A stretch of DNA of 64,000 nt from positions 1-64,000 of the forward strand of contig NZ_RCCE01000006.1 in NCBI RefSeq assembly GCF_003663885.1. The letters run 5' to 3'. This stretch comes from Litoreibacter meonggei. Its GTDB lineage: Bacteria; Pseudomonadota; Alphaproteobacteria; Rhodobacterales; Rhodobacteraceae. Below are positions 38,783-61,802 of this stretch, one piece after another (the stretch's first letter is position 1; each line of letters starts with the position of its first letter). Below the pieces are notes generated by a model. The model was not told where the DNA came from, made no database searches, and saw only the letters and a list, made by a program, of their open reading frames with translations. The position numbers and the translations under genes were made by a program.

Positions 38783-39196
38783 TTATTCGGCGTCTTCAGC
38801 CTCAAGGCGGGCTTTGTCAGCAGCACCCTTGGCAGAGACGTCGCGGTCGACGAACTCGATGATCGCCATTGGTGCCATGTCGCCATAGCGGAATCCGGCT
38901 TTCATAACACGCACATAGCCGCCTTGACGGTCTTTGTAGCGTGGGCCCAGAACGTCAAACAGCTTGGCGACGTCTTTGTCTTGAACCAGCTTGGAAGCGG
39001 CCTGACGGCGCGCATGCAGGTCGCCGCGTTTCGCCAGCGTGATCATTTTCTCAATGATCGGGCGAAGCTCTTTGGCTTTCGGCAGGGTTGTTTTGATTTG
39101 CTCATGCTCGATGAGCGAGCCGCACATGTTAATGAACAGCGCTTTGCGGTGTTCATGTGTACGGTTCAGGCGGCGGTAGCCTCGTGAGTGGCGCAT
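38783..39196 (-). CDS. rplQ: 50S ribosomal protein L17
   Basis: The 137-residue protein is complete L17: [20 protein letters not shown], then [19 protein letters not shown] and a [14 protein letters not shown] stretch. It is the last gene of the ribosomal supercluster, with an acidic Ala-rich tail of about 20 residues. A 199-base gap to rpoA is wider than usual for this pair and contains a GC-rich palindrome. Confidence 0.98.
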
Positions 39197-39365
39197 TTTA
39201 TCGTTCCTTCAGTCTATACTTTGTACGGGTCGCCGATGCGTGTCGGTACCTCTGTTGGGGCAGAATTGCCCAGTATTTTCCCGGTCATAAAGCCGGCATT
39301 TTCGTGGTCTGCTTCGCGTCGGCTTTGCGTCGGACTTCTGTCGGGCACGCCGGGCGGAGCGGTAA

Positions 39366-39387
39366 GGCGGGATTTCCCCCGCCCTAC
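39366..39387. repeat. intergenic GGCGGG palindrome, copy 1
   Basis: On the minus strand this reads GTAGGGCGGGGGAAATCCCGCC: a 6-bp GC stem headed by GTA. A second copy lies at 54284. It is just after the rpoA stop. Confidence 0.5.
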
Positions 39388-39395
39388 AGTATTAT

Positions 39396-40412
39396 TTAGA
39401 ACGCGTCTTCGAATTTCTTAGCAAGATCTTCGATGTTCTCTGGCGGCCAATCCACGATGTCCATCCCGAGGTGCAAGCCCATGCCAGACAGCACTTCTTT
39501 GATCTCGTTGAGGGATTTGCGACCGAAGTTCGGGGTGCGGAGCATCTCGGCTTCGGTTTTCTGGATCAGATCGCCAATGTAGACGATGTTGTCGTTCTTC
39601 AGGCAGTTTGCAGAGCGCACGGAAAGTTCCAGCTCGTCCACTTTCTTCAGCAGAAGCGGGTTGAACTCAAGCTCGTCCTCGTCGTCCTGCGCACGGGCCG
39701 ACTCTGGCTCGTCGAAGTTGACGAAGATGCCCAGCTGGTCCTGCATGATGCGCGCGGCGTAAGCCACTGCATCGTCAGGTGTCAGGGAGCCGTCGGTCTC
39801 GATCTTCATCGTCAGCTTGTCATAATCCAGCACCTGACCTTCGCGGGTCGGCTGCACGTCATACGAAACTTTTTTGACGGGCGAGAAGATAGCGTCGATC
39901 GGGATCAGACCGATTGGCGCGTCTTCCGGCTTGTTCTTCTCTGCCGAGACATAGCCCTTACCTGTGTTCACCGTCAGCTCCATGAACAGCTCTGCGCCGT
40001 CATCGAGGTGGCAGATCACGTGGTCGCGGTTCAGGACCTCGATACCAGCGGAATCAGAGATGTCGCCAGCGGTCACGATTGCAGGGCCCTTCGCGGAAAC
40101 CGACAAGCGCTTTGGCCCTTCGACTTCCATGCGGATTGCCACGCCTTTGAGGTTCAAGACTACATCCGTCACGTCTTCGCGCACACCAGCAATCGAGGAG
40201 AACTCGTGCAGCACGTTGTCGATCTGAACAGACGTGATCGCCGCACCTTGCAGCGAGCTCATCAGGACGCGACGCAGGGCGTTGCCCATGGTCAGGCCAA
40301 AGCCACGCTCCAGCGGCTCGGCAATCACAGTTGCTTTGCGTGCAGGATCGTTGCCGGGCTTTACGTCCAGTTGGGTGGGCTTGATCAGCTCTTGCCAATT
40401 TTTATGGATCAT
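39396..40412 (-). CDS. rpoA: RNA polymerase alpha subunit
   Basis: ATG 40412 ([12 protein letters not shown]) is the standard alphaproteobacterial start; the frame is open 24 codons upstream. The 338-residue protein has the assembly domain ([17 protein letters not shown] near 39-55) and the C-terminal DNA/activator-binding domain ([15 protein letters not shown], about 265 on) joined by an acidic linker. Gap to rpsK is 120 bases, without a visible terminator. Confidence 0.98.
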
Positions 40413-40532
40413 GTGTGTCGCCTCCATGCTCGGCCGCAGATCATGTCCAAATCCGGGGCCACTCGAGGGTGAAATGACAAACACGGACCCCGCCCAAACC
40501 GTGGACGGGGACCGCGCGATAGAAATCGTAAC

Positions 40533-58519: not shown

Positions 58520-60640
58520 TTATGCAAATTTGGCCTGAATTTCTTCAGAGATCGCGTTTGGCACCGGTTCGTAGTGATCGAACTGCATGGTGAAGTTCGC
58601 ACGACCAGAAGACATCGACCGCAGAGTGTTGATGTAGCCGAACATGTTGGCCAGTGGCACGTAGCACTCGATCGCAATCGCGTTGCCGCGGCTGTCTTGC
58701 CCCTGCACCTGACCACGACGGGACGTCAGATCGCCGATGATGCCGCCGGTATACTCGTCCGGGGTCACAACTTCGACTTTCATGATCGGCTCCAGCAGTT
58801 TGGCGCCAGCTTTACGCATGCCCTCACGCATACACATACGTGCTGCGATCTCGAATGCGAGGATGCTGGAGTCGACATCGTGGAACTTGCCGTCGATCAA
58901 AGCCACCTTGAAGTCGATCACGGGGAAGCCGGCCAGAGGGCCGCTATCCATAACCGAGTTGATGCCTTTTTCAACGCCGGGGATGTATTCCTTGGGAACA
59001 GCACCACCAACGATGCGGCTCTCGAAGGAGAACCCTTCGCCGGGCTCTGTCGGGGAAATGATCATTTTCACTTCGCCGAACTGGCCAGAACCACCAGACT
59101 GCTTCTTGTGGGTGTAGGTGTGCTCTACCTCGTGACCAATGGTCTCGCGGTAAGCAACCTGAGGCGCACCGATGTTGGCTTCGACTTTGAATTCACGCTT
59201 GAGGCGATCAATCAGGATGTCGAGGTGAAGTTCGCCCATGCCTTTCATGATGGTTTGACCGGACTCGATATCGGTCTCCACGCGGAAGGATGGATCTTCA
59301 GCCGCCAAACGTTGCAGACCCAGAGACATTTTCTCTTGGTCGGCTTTGGTCTTTGGCTCAACAGCAATCTCGATAACCGGATCGGGGAAGGTCATCGTTT
59401 CCAGAACCACCTGTTCTTTGTCATCAGACAAAGTGTCACCGGTAGTCGTGTTTTTCAGACCCGCAAGCGCAATGATGTCACCAGCAAATGCTTCGGTTAT
59501 TTCATCCTGCTTGTTGGAGTGCATCATAACCATACGGCCGATACGCTCCTTGTTGCCCTTTGTTGTGTTCATCAACGTGTCACCTTTGGCAAGCTTACCA
59601 GAGTAGATACGCGTGAACGTCAATGTGCCCATGTACGGGTCGTTCATGATCTTGAACGCGAGGCCGGAGAACGGCATGTCGTCATCCGCACGACGCGGAA
59701 TGTTACGTGTCTCAGTCTCGTCGCCCGGCGCAAAACCCATGTAATCGACAACGTCCATCGGCGATGGAAGATAGTCGATCACAGCGTTCAATAGTGGCTG
59801 AACGCCTTTGTTCTTGAACGCAGAACCACCCAGAACCGGAACGAATTTCAACGCCAGGCAGCCCTTGCGCAGCAATGCGCGAAGTGTTTTCACGTCTGGC
59901 TCCGCGCCGTCCATGAGGTAGTTTTCCATAGCGTCGTCGTCCATCTCGACGGCAGCTTCGATCATCTTGGCACGCCATTCGTTGGCCATGTCCTGAAGCT
60001 CGGCGCGAACAGGCGCTTTGATCCAAGATGCACCAAGGTCTTCGCCCTGCCACAACCATTCTTCCATAGTCACGAGATCGATCAGACCTTCCAGCTCGGT
60101 TTCTGCACCAATTGGGATACCAACCGGGATTGCAGTCGCGCCGGTACGGTCTTCGATCATGTGAACGCAGTTGAAGAAGTCTGCGCCAATCTTGTCCATT
60201 TTGTTAACGAACACGATCCGCGGAACCTTATAGCGGTCAGCCTGACGCCAAACGGTTTCGGTTTGCGGCTCAACACCGGCGTTACCGTCAAGAACGGTAA
60301 CCGCACCATCGAGAACAGCCAACGAGCGCTCGACTTCAATCGTGAAGTCAACGTGGCCCGGAGTGTCGATGATGTTCATGCGGTGCTTGAGTGAATCAGG
60401 CTCTACGCCGTTTTCAGTGCGTTCCCAGAATGTCGTCGTCGCAGCGGAAGTAATTGTAATACCCCGTTCCTGCTCTTGCTCCATCCAGTCCATCGTTGCG
60501 GCGCCGTCGTGGACTTCGCCGATGTTGTGGGATTTGCCTGTATAAAACAGGATACGCTCGGAACACGTGGTCTTACCGGCATCAATGTGCGCAATAATAC
60601 CGAAGTTCCGGTAGCGTTCGAGGGGATAGTCGCGTGCCAT
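58520..60640 (-). CDS. fusA: elongation factor G
   Basis: The 706-residue translocase has [50 protein letters not shown] and [10 protein letters not shown], followed by domains II to V (for example [18 protein letters not shown]). Length and start are standard. It lies 15 bases after rpsG in the str block. Confidence 0.98.
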
Positions 60641-60655
60641 ATCAGATGCGCTCCC

Positions 60656-61126
60656 TTACCAGCGGTAGTGGCTGAACGCTTTGTTAGCGTCGGCCATCTT
60701 GTGTGTGTCTTCACGCTTTTTGACGGCGGAACCACGAGAGTTCACAGCATCCATCAGCTCGCCTGCAAGACGCTCTTCCATTGTGTGCTCGTTGCGCGAA
60801 CGCGCAGCTTTGATCAACCAACGGATTGCCAGGGCCTCGCGGCGCTCTGGGCGCACTTCGACAGGAACCTGGTAGGTGGCACCACCGACACGGCGCGAAC
60901 GCACTTCGACGGAAGGCTTGATGAGCTCGAGAGCTTCGTGGAACACTTCCACAGGAGCTTTCTTCAGCTTTTCTTCAACGCGGTCGAATGCGTTGTATAC
61001 GATGCGTTCGGCGGCAGACTTCTTGCCGTCGATCATCAGGTTGTTCATAAATTTGCTCAGAACGCGGTCGCCAAATTTGGCGTCCGGCAGAATCTCGCGT
61101 TTTTCAGCGGCGTGACGACGTGACAT
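60656..61126 (-). CDS. rpsG: 30S ribosomal protein S7
   Basis: The 156-residue protein shows [38 protein letters not shown] and [24 protein letters not shown] residues. It nucleates assembly of the 30S head. In E. coli it also represses the str operon. Confidence 0.98.
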
Positions 61127-61138
61127 GTAATCTCTTCC

Positions 61139-61510
61139 TTACTTCGGACGCTTCGCGCCGTATTTCGAACGACGTTGCTTACGATCTTTAACGCCTTGGG
61201 TATCCAACACACCGCGCAGGATGTGGTAACGGACACCCGGAAGGTCTTTTACGCGACCGCCGCGGATCAGAACCACAGAGTGCTCCTGAAGGTTGTGGCT
61301 TTCACCACCGATGTACGAGATGACCTCGAAACCGTTTGTCAGACGCACTTTGGCGACCTTCCGCATAGCGGAGTTCGGTTTCTTTGGTGTCGTGGTATAA
61401 ACACGAGTACAAACACCACGCTTTTGCGGGCATTGCTCGAGGTGCTGAGACTTGGAAGTCTTGCGTTTTGGCTGGCGCGGTTTGCGGATCAGCTGTTGAA
61501 TCGTTGGCAT
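61139..61510 (-). CDS. rpsL: 30S ribosomal protein S12
   Basis: ATG 61510 ([15 protein letters not shown]) is the family start. The 123-residue protein has [19 protein letters not shown] with Lys43 and [14 protein letters not shown] with Lys88; both are the wild-type, streptomycin-sensitive residues. It is first of the str block and has a 220-base leader. Confidence 0.98.
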
Positions 61511-61802
61511 TGAGGATCGTCCCCTTGGTTTCAAACTCGTTTGGGACACACGCGCGTGCCCCGCTTAATTCTTGGTTGTATTTACGCGTCCGCAAACACA
61601 AAGACCCGCAGCGGGTTACCCTACCTGGGATCCGCGCGGTGGGATTACAGAGGATCGAGACGTCTTAAAGTGTCCGGATCGTGACCACTAAATTTTGATT
61701 GCAGGCCGAGCGATCCCCGACCTGATTGCGCGCGTAATATGCGGAGTCGGGTGGGGTGTCAACAGCCGGAGGCAGGATCGCACGCCATATTGCCGTCTCG
61801 TT
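61511..61802 (-). promoter_or_regulatory. str operon promoter and leader
   Basis: TTGACA at 61757-61762 and TATTAC at 61734-61739, spaced by exactly 17 bases, form the strongest sigma70 match in the window. The leader of about 215 bases contains a small ACCCGC-TGCGGGT-type hairpin near 61605-61620. No gene lies in this gap. The 40 bases between the promoter and the EamA stop are otherwise plain. Confidence 0.65.

Follow-up and report, generated by a model that had tools for sequence, protein, structure and literature searches.

In Litoreibacter meonggei (Rhodobacteraceae), the ribosomal supercluster running from rpsL to rplQ very probably consists of at least five self-contained blocks separated by four terminator/promoter seams, with structured leaders at the block heads and exchangeable cargo in the gaps. 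The cluster lies in the 64-kb window considered here, i.e. the whole stretch of DNA analysed (positions 1 to 64,000 of contig NZ_RCCE01000006.1), where its 31 genes, all on the minus strand, follow the standard order rpsL-rpsG-fusA-tuf-rpsJ-rplC-rplD-rplW-rplB-rpsS-rplV-rpsC-rplP-rpmC-...-rpmD-rplO-secY-adk-rpsM-rpsK-rpoA-rplQ. An earlier note on this DNA had described a retained str-S10-spc-alpha order with extra genes between tuf and rpsJ, rplW and rplB, rplP and rpmC, and rpmD and rplO; both observations hold, the interposed open reading frames (ORFs) encoding a DUF6968 protein, an SMI1/KNR4 (SUKH) protein, a 2-oxoglutarate (2OG)-Fe(II) oxygenase and a trypsin-like protein, respectively.

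The ribosomal-protein cluster is a textbook example of conserved gene order, kept by co-transcription and feedback, and by the operon limits of Escherichia coli two of the seams fall within the S10 operon and one within spc. Repeated cuts at the same places, with split genomes standing beside unsplit relatives, provide a direct test of what keeps operons together and permit asking which changes, namely an own leader, a terminator or a promoter, must precede operon separation. The case is drawn from the sequences themselves, i.e. the four places, the terminators and promoters found there, the drop in similarity at the -35 box, the turnover of the gap contents and the base pairing of the leaders; that the promoters and terminators act at the seams is what we infer from them. 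Where a seam is split, the preceding block would end at an intrinsic terminator within about 250 nucleotides (nt), the next block would restart at its own promoter with a 17-nt spacer and its transcript would open with a leader extending to the rpsJ, rplB, rpmC or rplO start codon. The interval from terminator to promoter would be neutral ground, where arriving foreign DNA would be tolerated, because nothing essential lies in between, and replaced fast; at most other junctions, such DNA would interrupt the operon and be lost.

Breakage of the cluster across the Rhodobacteraceae

The comparison brought together the 80 named loci closest by S3 protein (the set from the window's genus including uncultured Litoreibacter contigs), 30 family genomes and 10 outgroups representing ten further families of the class with two stretches each, and 60 additional family genomes with one stretch each, every stretch being of at most 20 kb. 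The 60 additional genomes were hand-picked from the listed part of a 246-genome draw, with a bias towards nearer relatives and longer contigs. Removal of duplicates (3 + 7) left 171 rows, i.e. 161 Rhodobacteraceae including the window and 10 outgroups. A junction was counted when both flanking genes were inside the stretch, so that the number of genomes varies by junction, later junctions being out of view where large inserts displace them; besides, a gap-size filter dropped 9 fusA-tuf and 55 rplC-rplD rows in which wrongly set gene ends produced large overlaps. Junctions with a gap above 450 nt were considered as interrupted and those with a gap below 200 nt as uninterrupted, a gap of 200-450 nt with terminator and promoter being designated as a bare seam.

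Among 30 junctions measured, insertions above 450 nt were frequent at four only, that is tuf-rpsJ (43/110), rplW-rplB (98/138), rplP-rpmC (122/135) and rpmD-rplO (65/93). At the other 26 junctions, such gaps occurred at fusA-tuf (4/64) and adk-rpsM (4/54) and at none of the remaining 24. None of the four seam junctions had a gap larger than 183 nt in the outgroups (10 genomes). Where all four junctions could be seen together (71 genomes), the cluster was split at four of them in 23 genomes, at three in 20, at two in 11, at one in 12 and at none in 5. On a tree of the rplB-rplP proteins, the minimum number of state changes was 16 for tuf-rpsJ, 24 for rplW-rplB, 6 for rplP-rpmC and 13 for rpmD-rplO, against averages of 35, 41, 22 and 30 in 100 label shuffles, these counts being rough since the tree is unrooted, built with FastTree and drawn from the same cluster. 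The earlier note had pointed to a comparison of the junctions across genomes as a check, and its outcome bears the reading out: gaps recur family-wide at the same four places and their contents vary. As far as the compared genomes tell, the four-seam layout is a family-wide architecture and nothing special to this strain. The occasional inserts of relatives at fusA-tuf and adk-rpsM (41307-41515 in the window) mark these two junctions as possible further seams.

Terminators and promoters at the seams

In the window, four hairpins, each a stem followed by a T tract, close the blocks on the minus strand exactly where the earlier note had placed them: 3' of tuf at 57135..57163 (stem 57163-57140), 3' of rplW at 54239..54267 (stem 54267-54246), 3' of rplP at 50611..50640 (stem 50640-50615) and 3' of rpmD at 45021..45048 (stem 45048-45027), the T tracts ending at 57135, 54239, 50611 and 45021. 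Five promoters with an exact 17-nt spacer were likewise found at their positions on the same strand, namely the str promoter (TTGACA-17-TATTAC, 61734..61762) and those of the rpsJ block (TTGCGA-17-TATAGC, 56514..56542), the rplB block (TTGACC-17-TACACA, 53465..53493), the rpmC block (TTGCAA-17-TAAAGC, 49455..49483) and the rplO block (TTGCCA-17-TAAACA, 44196..44224). According to the gene calls, they delimit block 1 (rpsL-rpsG-fusA-tuf, 57254..61549), block 2 (rpsJ-rplC-rplD-rplW, 54312..56387), block 3 (rplB-rpsS-rplV-rpsC-rplP, 50680..53329), block 4 (rpmC-rpsQ-rplN-rplX-rplE-rpsN-rpsH-rplF-rplR-rpsE-rpmD, 45087..49376) and the start of block 5 (rplO-secY-adk, 41516..44102, with the rplO start codon at 44102), all on the minus strand. 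A scan of 43500-62500 returned 40 terminator-like sites compared to 23.0 +/- 5.6 in shuffles; one of the four seam terminators (45052-45023) was listed by the single-sequence terminator scan, the other three having been missed probably because the scan adds A-T pairs of the tail to the stem.

Across the family, terminators were sought up to 250 nt past the upstream gene and promoters 45-230 nt ahead of the downstream gene, with corrected rplB and rplO starts, which gives 100 and 67 interrupted junctions at rplW-rplB and rpmD-rplO (98 and 65 in the gap-size counts). A terminator was present in 89-97% of interrupted junctions (tuf-rpsJ 41/43, rplW-rplB 94/100, rplP-rpmC 109/122, rpmD-rplO 65/67), to be compared with 4/55, 5/24, 3/8 and 0/14 of uninterrupted ones in the same order and with 2-5% of cargo-interior segments. 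A 17-spaced promoter was found in 43-70% of interrupted junctions (30/43, 43/100, 84/122 and 35/67), in 0.4-1.1% of cargo-interior segments and, within the uninterrupted gaps, in 0/55, 0/24, 1/8 and 0/14. Since short gaps leave little space, the latter search was redone over the whole 230-45 nt stretch without stopping at the upstream gene, with 0/47, 1/24, 1/8 and 0/14 as a result; over this stretch, the ten outgroup genomes gave 0/40.

When spacings from 13 to 21 were considered, all four junctions peaked at 17, exact-17 spacing being observed in 19/33, 31/64, 45/79 and 20/40 interrupted junctions where 0.5, 0.1, 1.0 and 0.8 were expected, and the other spacings in 0-6 each. Conservation among 9-14 congeners changes abruptly at the promoter. 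In the 50 nt above the -35 box, identity was 0.35-0.36 at three junctions and 0.49 at rpmC, where a subclade sharing a common older insert is seen by eye, for a random value of 0.33; below the -35 box it reached 0.55-0.80, the first 29 nt being motif-selected and the remainder not. Among congeners, terminators are conserved to the T tract and the sequence past it is unrelated, as judged by eye. In phylogenetically independent pairs, the terminator went with the interruption in 6.6/7 pairs at tuf-rpsJ (median p 0.0156, 0.0 against) and in 7.7/10 at rplW-rplB (median p 0.0078, 0.1 against). For the promoter, this was so in 4.6/7 and 3.9/10, with 0.0 against in both. Bare seams occur at all four junctions, in 7/12 gaps of 200-450 nt at tuf-rpsJ, 1/14 at rplW-rplB, 3/5 at rplP-rpmC and 3/12 at rpmD-rplO.

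Further hairpins with a T-rich tail were noticed downstream of promoters, one between the rpsJ promoter and the S10 leader (56478..56500, minus strand), one just 3' of the rplB promoter (53431..53450, minus strand) and a similar one just downstream of the str promoter (61604-61616); their conservation in the genus was assessed by eye and all three have an attenuator-like appearance.

Leader RNAs at the block heads

The head of the rplB block carries the L2-Alphaproteobacteria ribosomal leader RF03142 (53332..53401, minus strand; Rfam 56.4 bits for a gathering threshold of 37.8). Covariation and models point to candidate leaders at the three other heads, on the same strand: an S10 (rpsJ) leader with 3 helices and 16 pairs (56385..56465), an L29 (rpmC) leader with 3 helices and 11 pairs (49374..49448) and an L15 (rplO) leader with two nested helices (44100..44168), the latter with a predicted pseudoknot (44105..44138) between the loop CGCUUC (44138-44133) and GAAGCG (44110-44105), beside the ribosome-binding site. 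In these three intervals, Rfam 15 gave no match up to E=1, and the predicted S10, L29 and L15 leaders are new here.

The alignments comprised 70 diverse picks out of 110 (rpsJ), 117 (rpmC) and 72 (rplO) sequences. Cells were paired at 90.3% for S10, 96.9% for L29 and 90.1% for L15; cells with both sides changed numbered 215, 66 and 80, compared to 78.9, 18.0 and 24.6 in shuffles, none of the 500 reaching the observed value. Covariation scores were 0.549 (S10), 0.325 (L29) and 0.265 (L15); with one strand slid, they did not exceed 0.132, 0.116 and 0.096, respectively. What characterises ribosomal leaders in general, i.e. a structure with compensatory changes directly ahead of ribosomal protein genes, is thus found in all three. 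As for the L15 pseudoknot, the cognate pairing score was 16.3 compared to 14.65 +/- 0.18 after permutation (0/2000), GACGCG/CGCGUC and UUUGCUUCU/AGAAGCAAA being among the compensated variants; in the fixed alignment, one half had 95% of cells paired.

The rpmC and rplO leader models each match one location in the window's genome. In a search of 144 genomes of the class with strict filters, each model recovered the listed family members G000, G093 and G214, and outside the family (141 genomes) there were weak matches only, 2 for L15, 0 for L29 and 1 for S10; since the ribosomal proteins of the window had no tblastn match in the corresponding 3-kb loci, these three weak matches were treated as chance. 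At E<0.1, none of the models had a match in the outgroup stretches (10 genomes). Within the family, uninterrupted genomes carry the S10 leader in 52/55 cases and the L15 leader in 12/14, counts which show the location of the structure rather than provide an independent test since many of the rows scored also built the models. The presence of both leaders in unsplit genomes suggests that the leader came before the seam and the seam before the cargo. Block-wise control would have come first for S10 and L15, as both leaders occur where the cluster is unsplit, and a later split would thereby have been tolerable.

Each leader may give its own block feedback, the effector being probably a protein of that block, and the L15 leader would hide the ribosome-binding region in its pseudoknot. 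Alternatively, the leaders could merely set the strength of the ribosome-binding site or the stability of the mRNA, with no ribosomal protein bound, a possibility that we take seriously but regard as the less probable one. The S10, L29 and L15 structures all end at the start codon and the L15 pseudoknot pairs beside the ribosome-binding site, as such a function would have it; on the other hand, three complex structures with many compensatory changes, one per block head, next to a fourth head with a listed ribosomal leader, argue for the regulatory function.

Some points detract from the leader evidence. For the number of pairs changed on both sides, shuffles reach the observed value in 40 (S10), 0 (L29) and 5 (L15) of 500. 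All these shuffles ignore kinship, and each structure was tested on the alignment it was derived from. In the L15 pseudoknot, the inner half has 71% of cells paired as aligned, since the loop changes register. In unsplit genomes, the L29 leader is found confidently in 2/8 and at E<0.01 in 3/8, and the leader-first order is weak for L29 since so few of them carry it.

Cargo in the gaps

In the window, all cargo genes but the 2OG oxygenase are on the minus strand, that is a DUF6968 protein of 104 amino acids (aa) at 56718..57032 (Pfam 2.7e-21), a SUKH protein of 153 aa at 53529..53990 (Pfam SUKH_5 4.1e-15) and a trypsin-like protein of 244 aa at 44263..44997, which barely passes the Pfam Trypsin_2 cut-off (28.1 bits for 27.6). 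At E 1e-4 in the fetched stretches of other genomes, the DUF6968 and trypsin-like proteins had no homologue and the SUKH protein had a single one, with 30% identity, in one other genome. Ordered pairs among 13-14 congeners had half or more of the gap interior in common in 2/156 cases at tuf-rpsJ, 0/182 at rplW-rplB and 4/156 at rpmD-rplO, and in 27/182 at rplP-rpmC. Cargo ORFs, called crudely as the longest ORFs of at least 60 aa and thus including false ones, fell into 504 clusters, 451 of which were singletons; clusters present in more than 7 genomes were limited to two, those of the 2OG oxygenase and of a protein lacking a Pfam match. The seams show constant core-gene flanks enclosing a content that varies among relatives, a feature of integration hotspots. 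Of note, the second recurrent rplP-rpmC family (e.g. L119:453-1124) gathers 25 clustered ORFs from 25 genomes, was detected in 12/122 gaps when one member served as query, has no Pfam match and shows by eye a signal-peptide-like start.

Pfam domains of the cargo relate chiefly to transport, metabolism and unknown functions (25 families listed for three of the four sets). PADLOC was applied to the rplP-rpmC and rplW-rplB sets, leaving out 41 tuf-rpsJ and 49 rpmD-rplO representatives. It returned 7 families with one member each for 135 rplP-rpmC representatives and 89 families for 104 rplW-rplB representatives, the 25 listed having one member each from overlapping models (reverse-transcriptase, cyclase, SoFic and candidate models). 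Relatives thus show a few defence-type genes at rplW-rplB, namely reverse transcriptase/TIR, oligonucleotide cyclase and SoFic. The gaps were also considered as defence islands; this was rejected since, with these PADLOC results from two of the four sets and Pfam domains mainly of non-defence kinds, defence is taken as a minority of the cargo.

The resident 2OG oxygenase

The gap between rplP and rpmC stands apart by its resident 2OG-Fe(II) oxygenase (TIGR02466), located at 49560..50180 in the window on the plus strand, opposite to the cluster (NCBIfam 6.4e-83, 277.5 bits for a cut-off of 62.5). This gene was found in 115/122 interrupted rplP-rpmC junctions, antisense in 64 and sense in 51, with at least 14 changes of orientation on the tree (114 rows). 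More broadly, TIGR02466 is above cut-off in 38/61 family genomes and 34/144 class genomes. The predicted structure (mean pLDDT 87.4) best matches 3BVC and 2RG4, both solved and uncharacterised, followed by the prolyl-4-hydroxylase of Pseudomonas putida solved with EF-Tu (17% identity, TM 0.58), many other prolyl-hydroxylase folds having comparable scores. YcfD-type (JmjC_2) enzymes are ribosomal oxygenases; the present gene is not of that type, since it matches Pfam 2OG-FeII_Oxy_5 and not JmjC_2 (PF08007), a domain not found in the window's genome and above cut-off in 1/61 family genomes. From gene location and modelled fold, modification of a translation protein by this oxygenase can be considered as a lead.

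Taken together, a joint reading can be proposed tentatively, with clear reservation as to its likelihood: the supercluster would have become a set of self-regulated cassettes, leaders would have arisen within one operon, long-range coupling would have become dispensable, terminator-promoter seams would then have formed and would act as safe docking sites for accessory genes in a highly expressed core, and the resident prolyl-hydroxylase-like 2OG oxygenase would modify EF-Tu or a protein of the ribosome, the family being nearly devoid of YcfD-type enzymes.

Alternative readings

Footprinting across the family, the antisense 2OG gene and reverse transcription PCR (RT-PCR) at rpmD/rplO in Ruegeria pomeroyi support the arrangement in at least five transcription units that the earlier note had put forward, and make it the probable one. 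That a single long mRNA crosses the seams, with the terminators being leaky or acting as cleavage sites and the promoters merely adding to it, is unlikely. Such a transcript would suit the cargo of three of the window's four gaps, which is co-directional, and the T-tailed hairpins sitting past promoters, since not every T-tailed hairpin need terminate when some lie downstream of promoters. It fits poorly with terminators being at 89-97% of interrupted junctions vs. 2-5% in cargo interior, with a 2OG gene in antisense in 64/115 junctions and with the R. pomeroyi RT-PCR, which revealed no rpmD-cargo or cargo-rplO link (PMC3305630).

More improbable still, the four sites could be attachment sites at which a dedicated mobile element or recombinase places the cargo. 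While the identical four places, the many independent state changes, the very diverse cargo, some transposase/integrase-core domains (rve in 2 and IS1595 in 1 of 104 rplW-rplB representatives) and some defence genes are compatible with it, no integrase family is recurrent among the large clusters nor among the cargo families listed (25 for three of the four sets), and by eye the seams have no sequence in common except terminator and promoter, neither a target motif nor attachment sites having been searched for. Finally, it is barely credible that the promoters are chance matches to a motif which came from the window: the generic scan is indeed not above shuffles, but the exact-17 excess at all four junctions, the conservation step at the -35 box and the near absence from unsplit genomes and outgroups contradict it.

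Against the seam reading itself weigh several points. Over 43500-62500, a generic sigma-70 scan requiring at least 9/12 consensus matches returned 6 sites compared to 9.1 +/- 2.8 in shuffles and listed none of the five 17-spaced promoters; promoters in one sequence being no better than chance, the case rests on the genome comparison, for which the promoter motif was derived from the window itself. No 17-spaced promoter is seen in 30-57% of interrupted junctions. The pair tests are not significant for the promoter (median p 0.0625 at tuf-rpsJ and 0.125 at rplW-rplB) and cover these two junctions, rpmD-rplO with 3 pairs and rplP-rpmC with 1 having too few. In bare seams, the detector may take a hairpin located past the promoter as a terminator. 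The T-tailed hairpins past the rpsJ and rplB promoters are unexplained by the seams. Transcript support is confined to one seam, rpmD/rplO, in R. pomeroyi (PMC3305630), and terminators can leak.

Relation to known systems

In E. coli, L4 exerts feedback on the S10 operon and S8 on spc. Feedback at a ribosomal block, proposed here, is common to both situations, which were compared via Rfam alone, without match. The earlier note supposed that L4 and S8 feedback could reach only their own blocks, which may be so; what can be seen in the sequence is a distinct structured leader heading each of the four downstream blocks. The closest precedent is the rpmD/rplO region of R. pomeroyi, where 1.8 kb harbour two strain-specific or nearly strain-specific genes that are co-transcribed, unlinked by RT-PCR to rpmD or rplO and with a predicted terminator, the region spanning 0.1-1.5 kb without similarity in other roseobacters (Christie-Oleza et al., 2012; PMC3305630). 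It is the same junction as the fourth seam of the window; in its available parts, this report deals with one junction in one strain, without promoter or leader, and does not treat the other three junctions as seams. Beyond it, nothing directly relevant on split ribosomal operons in Rhodobacteraceae was found in the open-licence literature, nor was any description of the four-seam pattern and of the three leaders.

In other classes, small gene groups inserted between operons disrupt their concatenation (PMC8046335). The present cluster is alike in that inserted gene groups interrupt concatenation; as far as the available text of that work goes, such events are infrequent, lie between operons and lead to full separation, whereas here the order is kept and turnover is repeated at fixed seams. 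As regards the leaders, the available part of the survey by Eckert and Weinberg (2020; PMC7247131) lists an L2 leader (rplB-rpsS-rplV-rpsC) rated '?'; this leader, RF03142, is the one found ahead of rplB in the window, unlike the S10, L29 and L15 leaders, which belong to no Rfam family. From the parts available of the respective reports, the rpsJ motif of Peptostreptococcaceae (PMC11109978) is a different RNA, and so are those of PMC2864571. The three leaders can be considered as candidate RNA-protein regulators in tractable and abundant marine bacteria, and the seams would mark entry points for foreign genes, without evident harm, in the most conserved part of the genome.

Further elements around the seams

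Besides the terminators, a structured-looking element was noticed in the 3' untranslated region of tuf (57180-57224, minus strand), with an outer stem, a GGCA/GAGA internal loop and then CGGT. Elements of this type sit between stop codon and terminator at tuf in 11 genomes and at rplP in 12 genomes, with 6 further matches in rplP-rpmC gaps, the search seeds having been taken from the same genomes. Past the rplP terminator of the window, a short ORF of 59 aa (50254-50433, minus strand) with a TTG start and AAGGAGA ahead of it is co-directional with the cluster.

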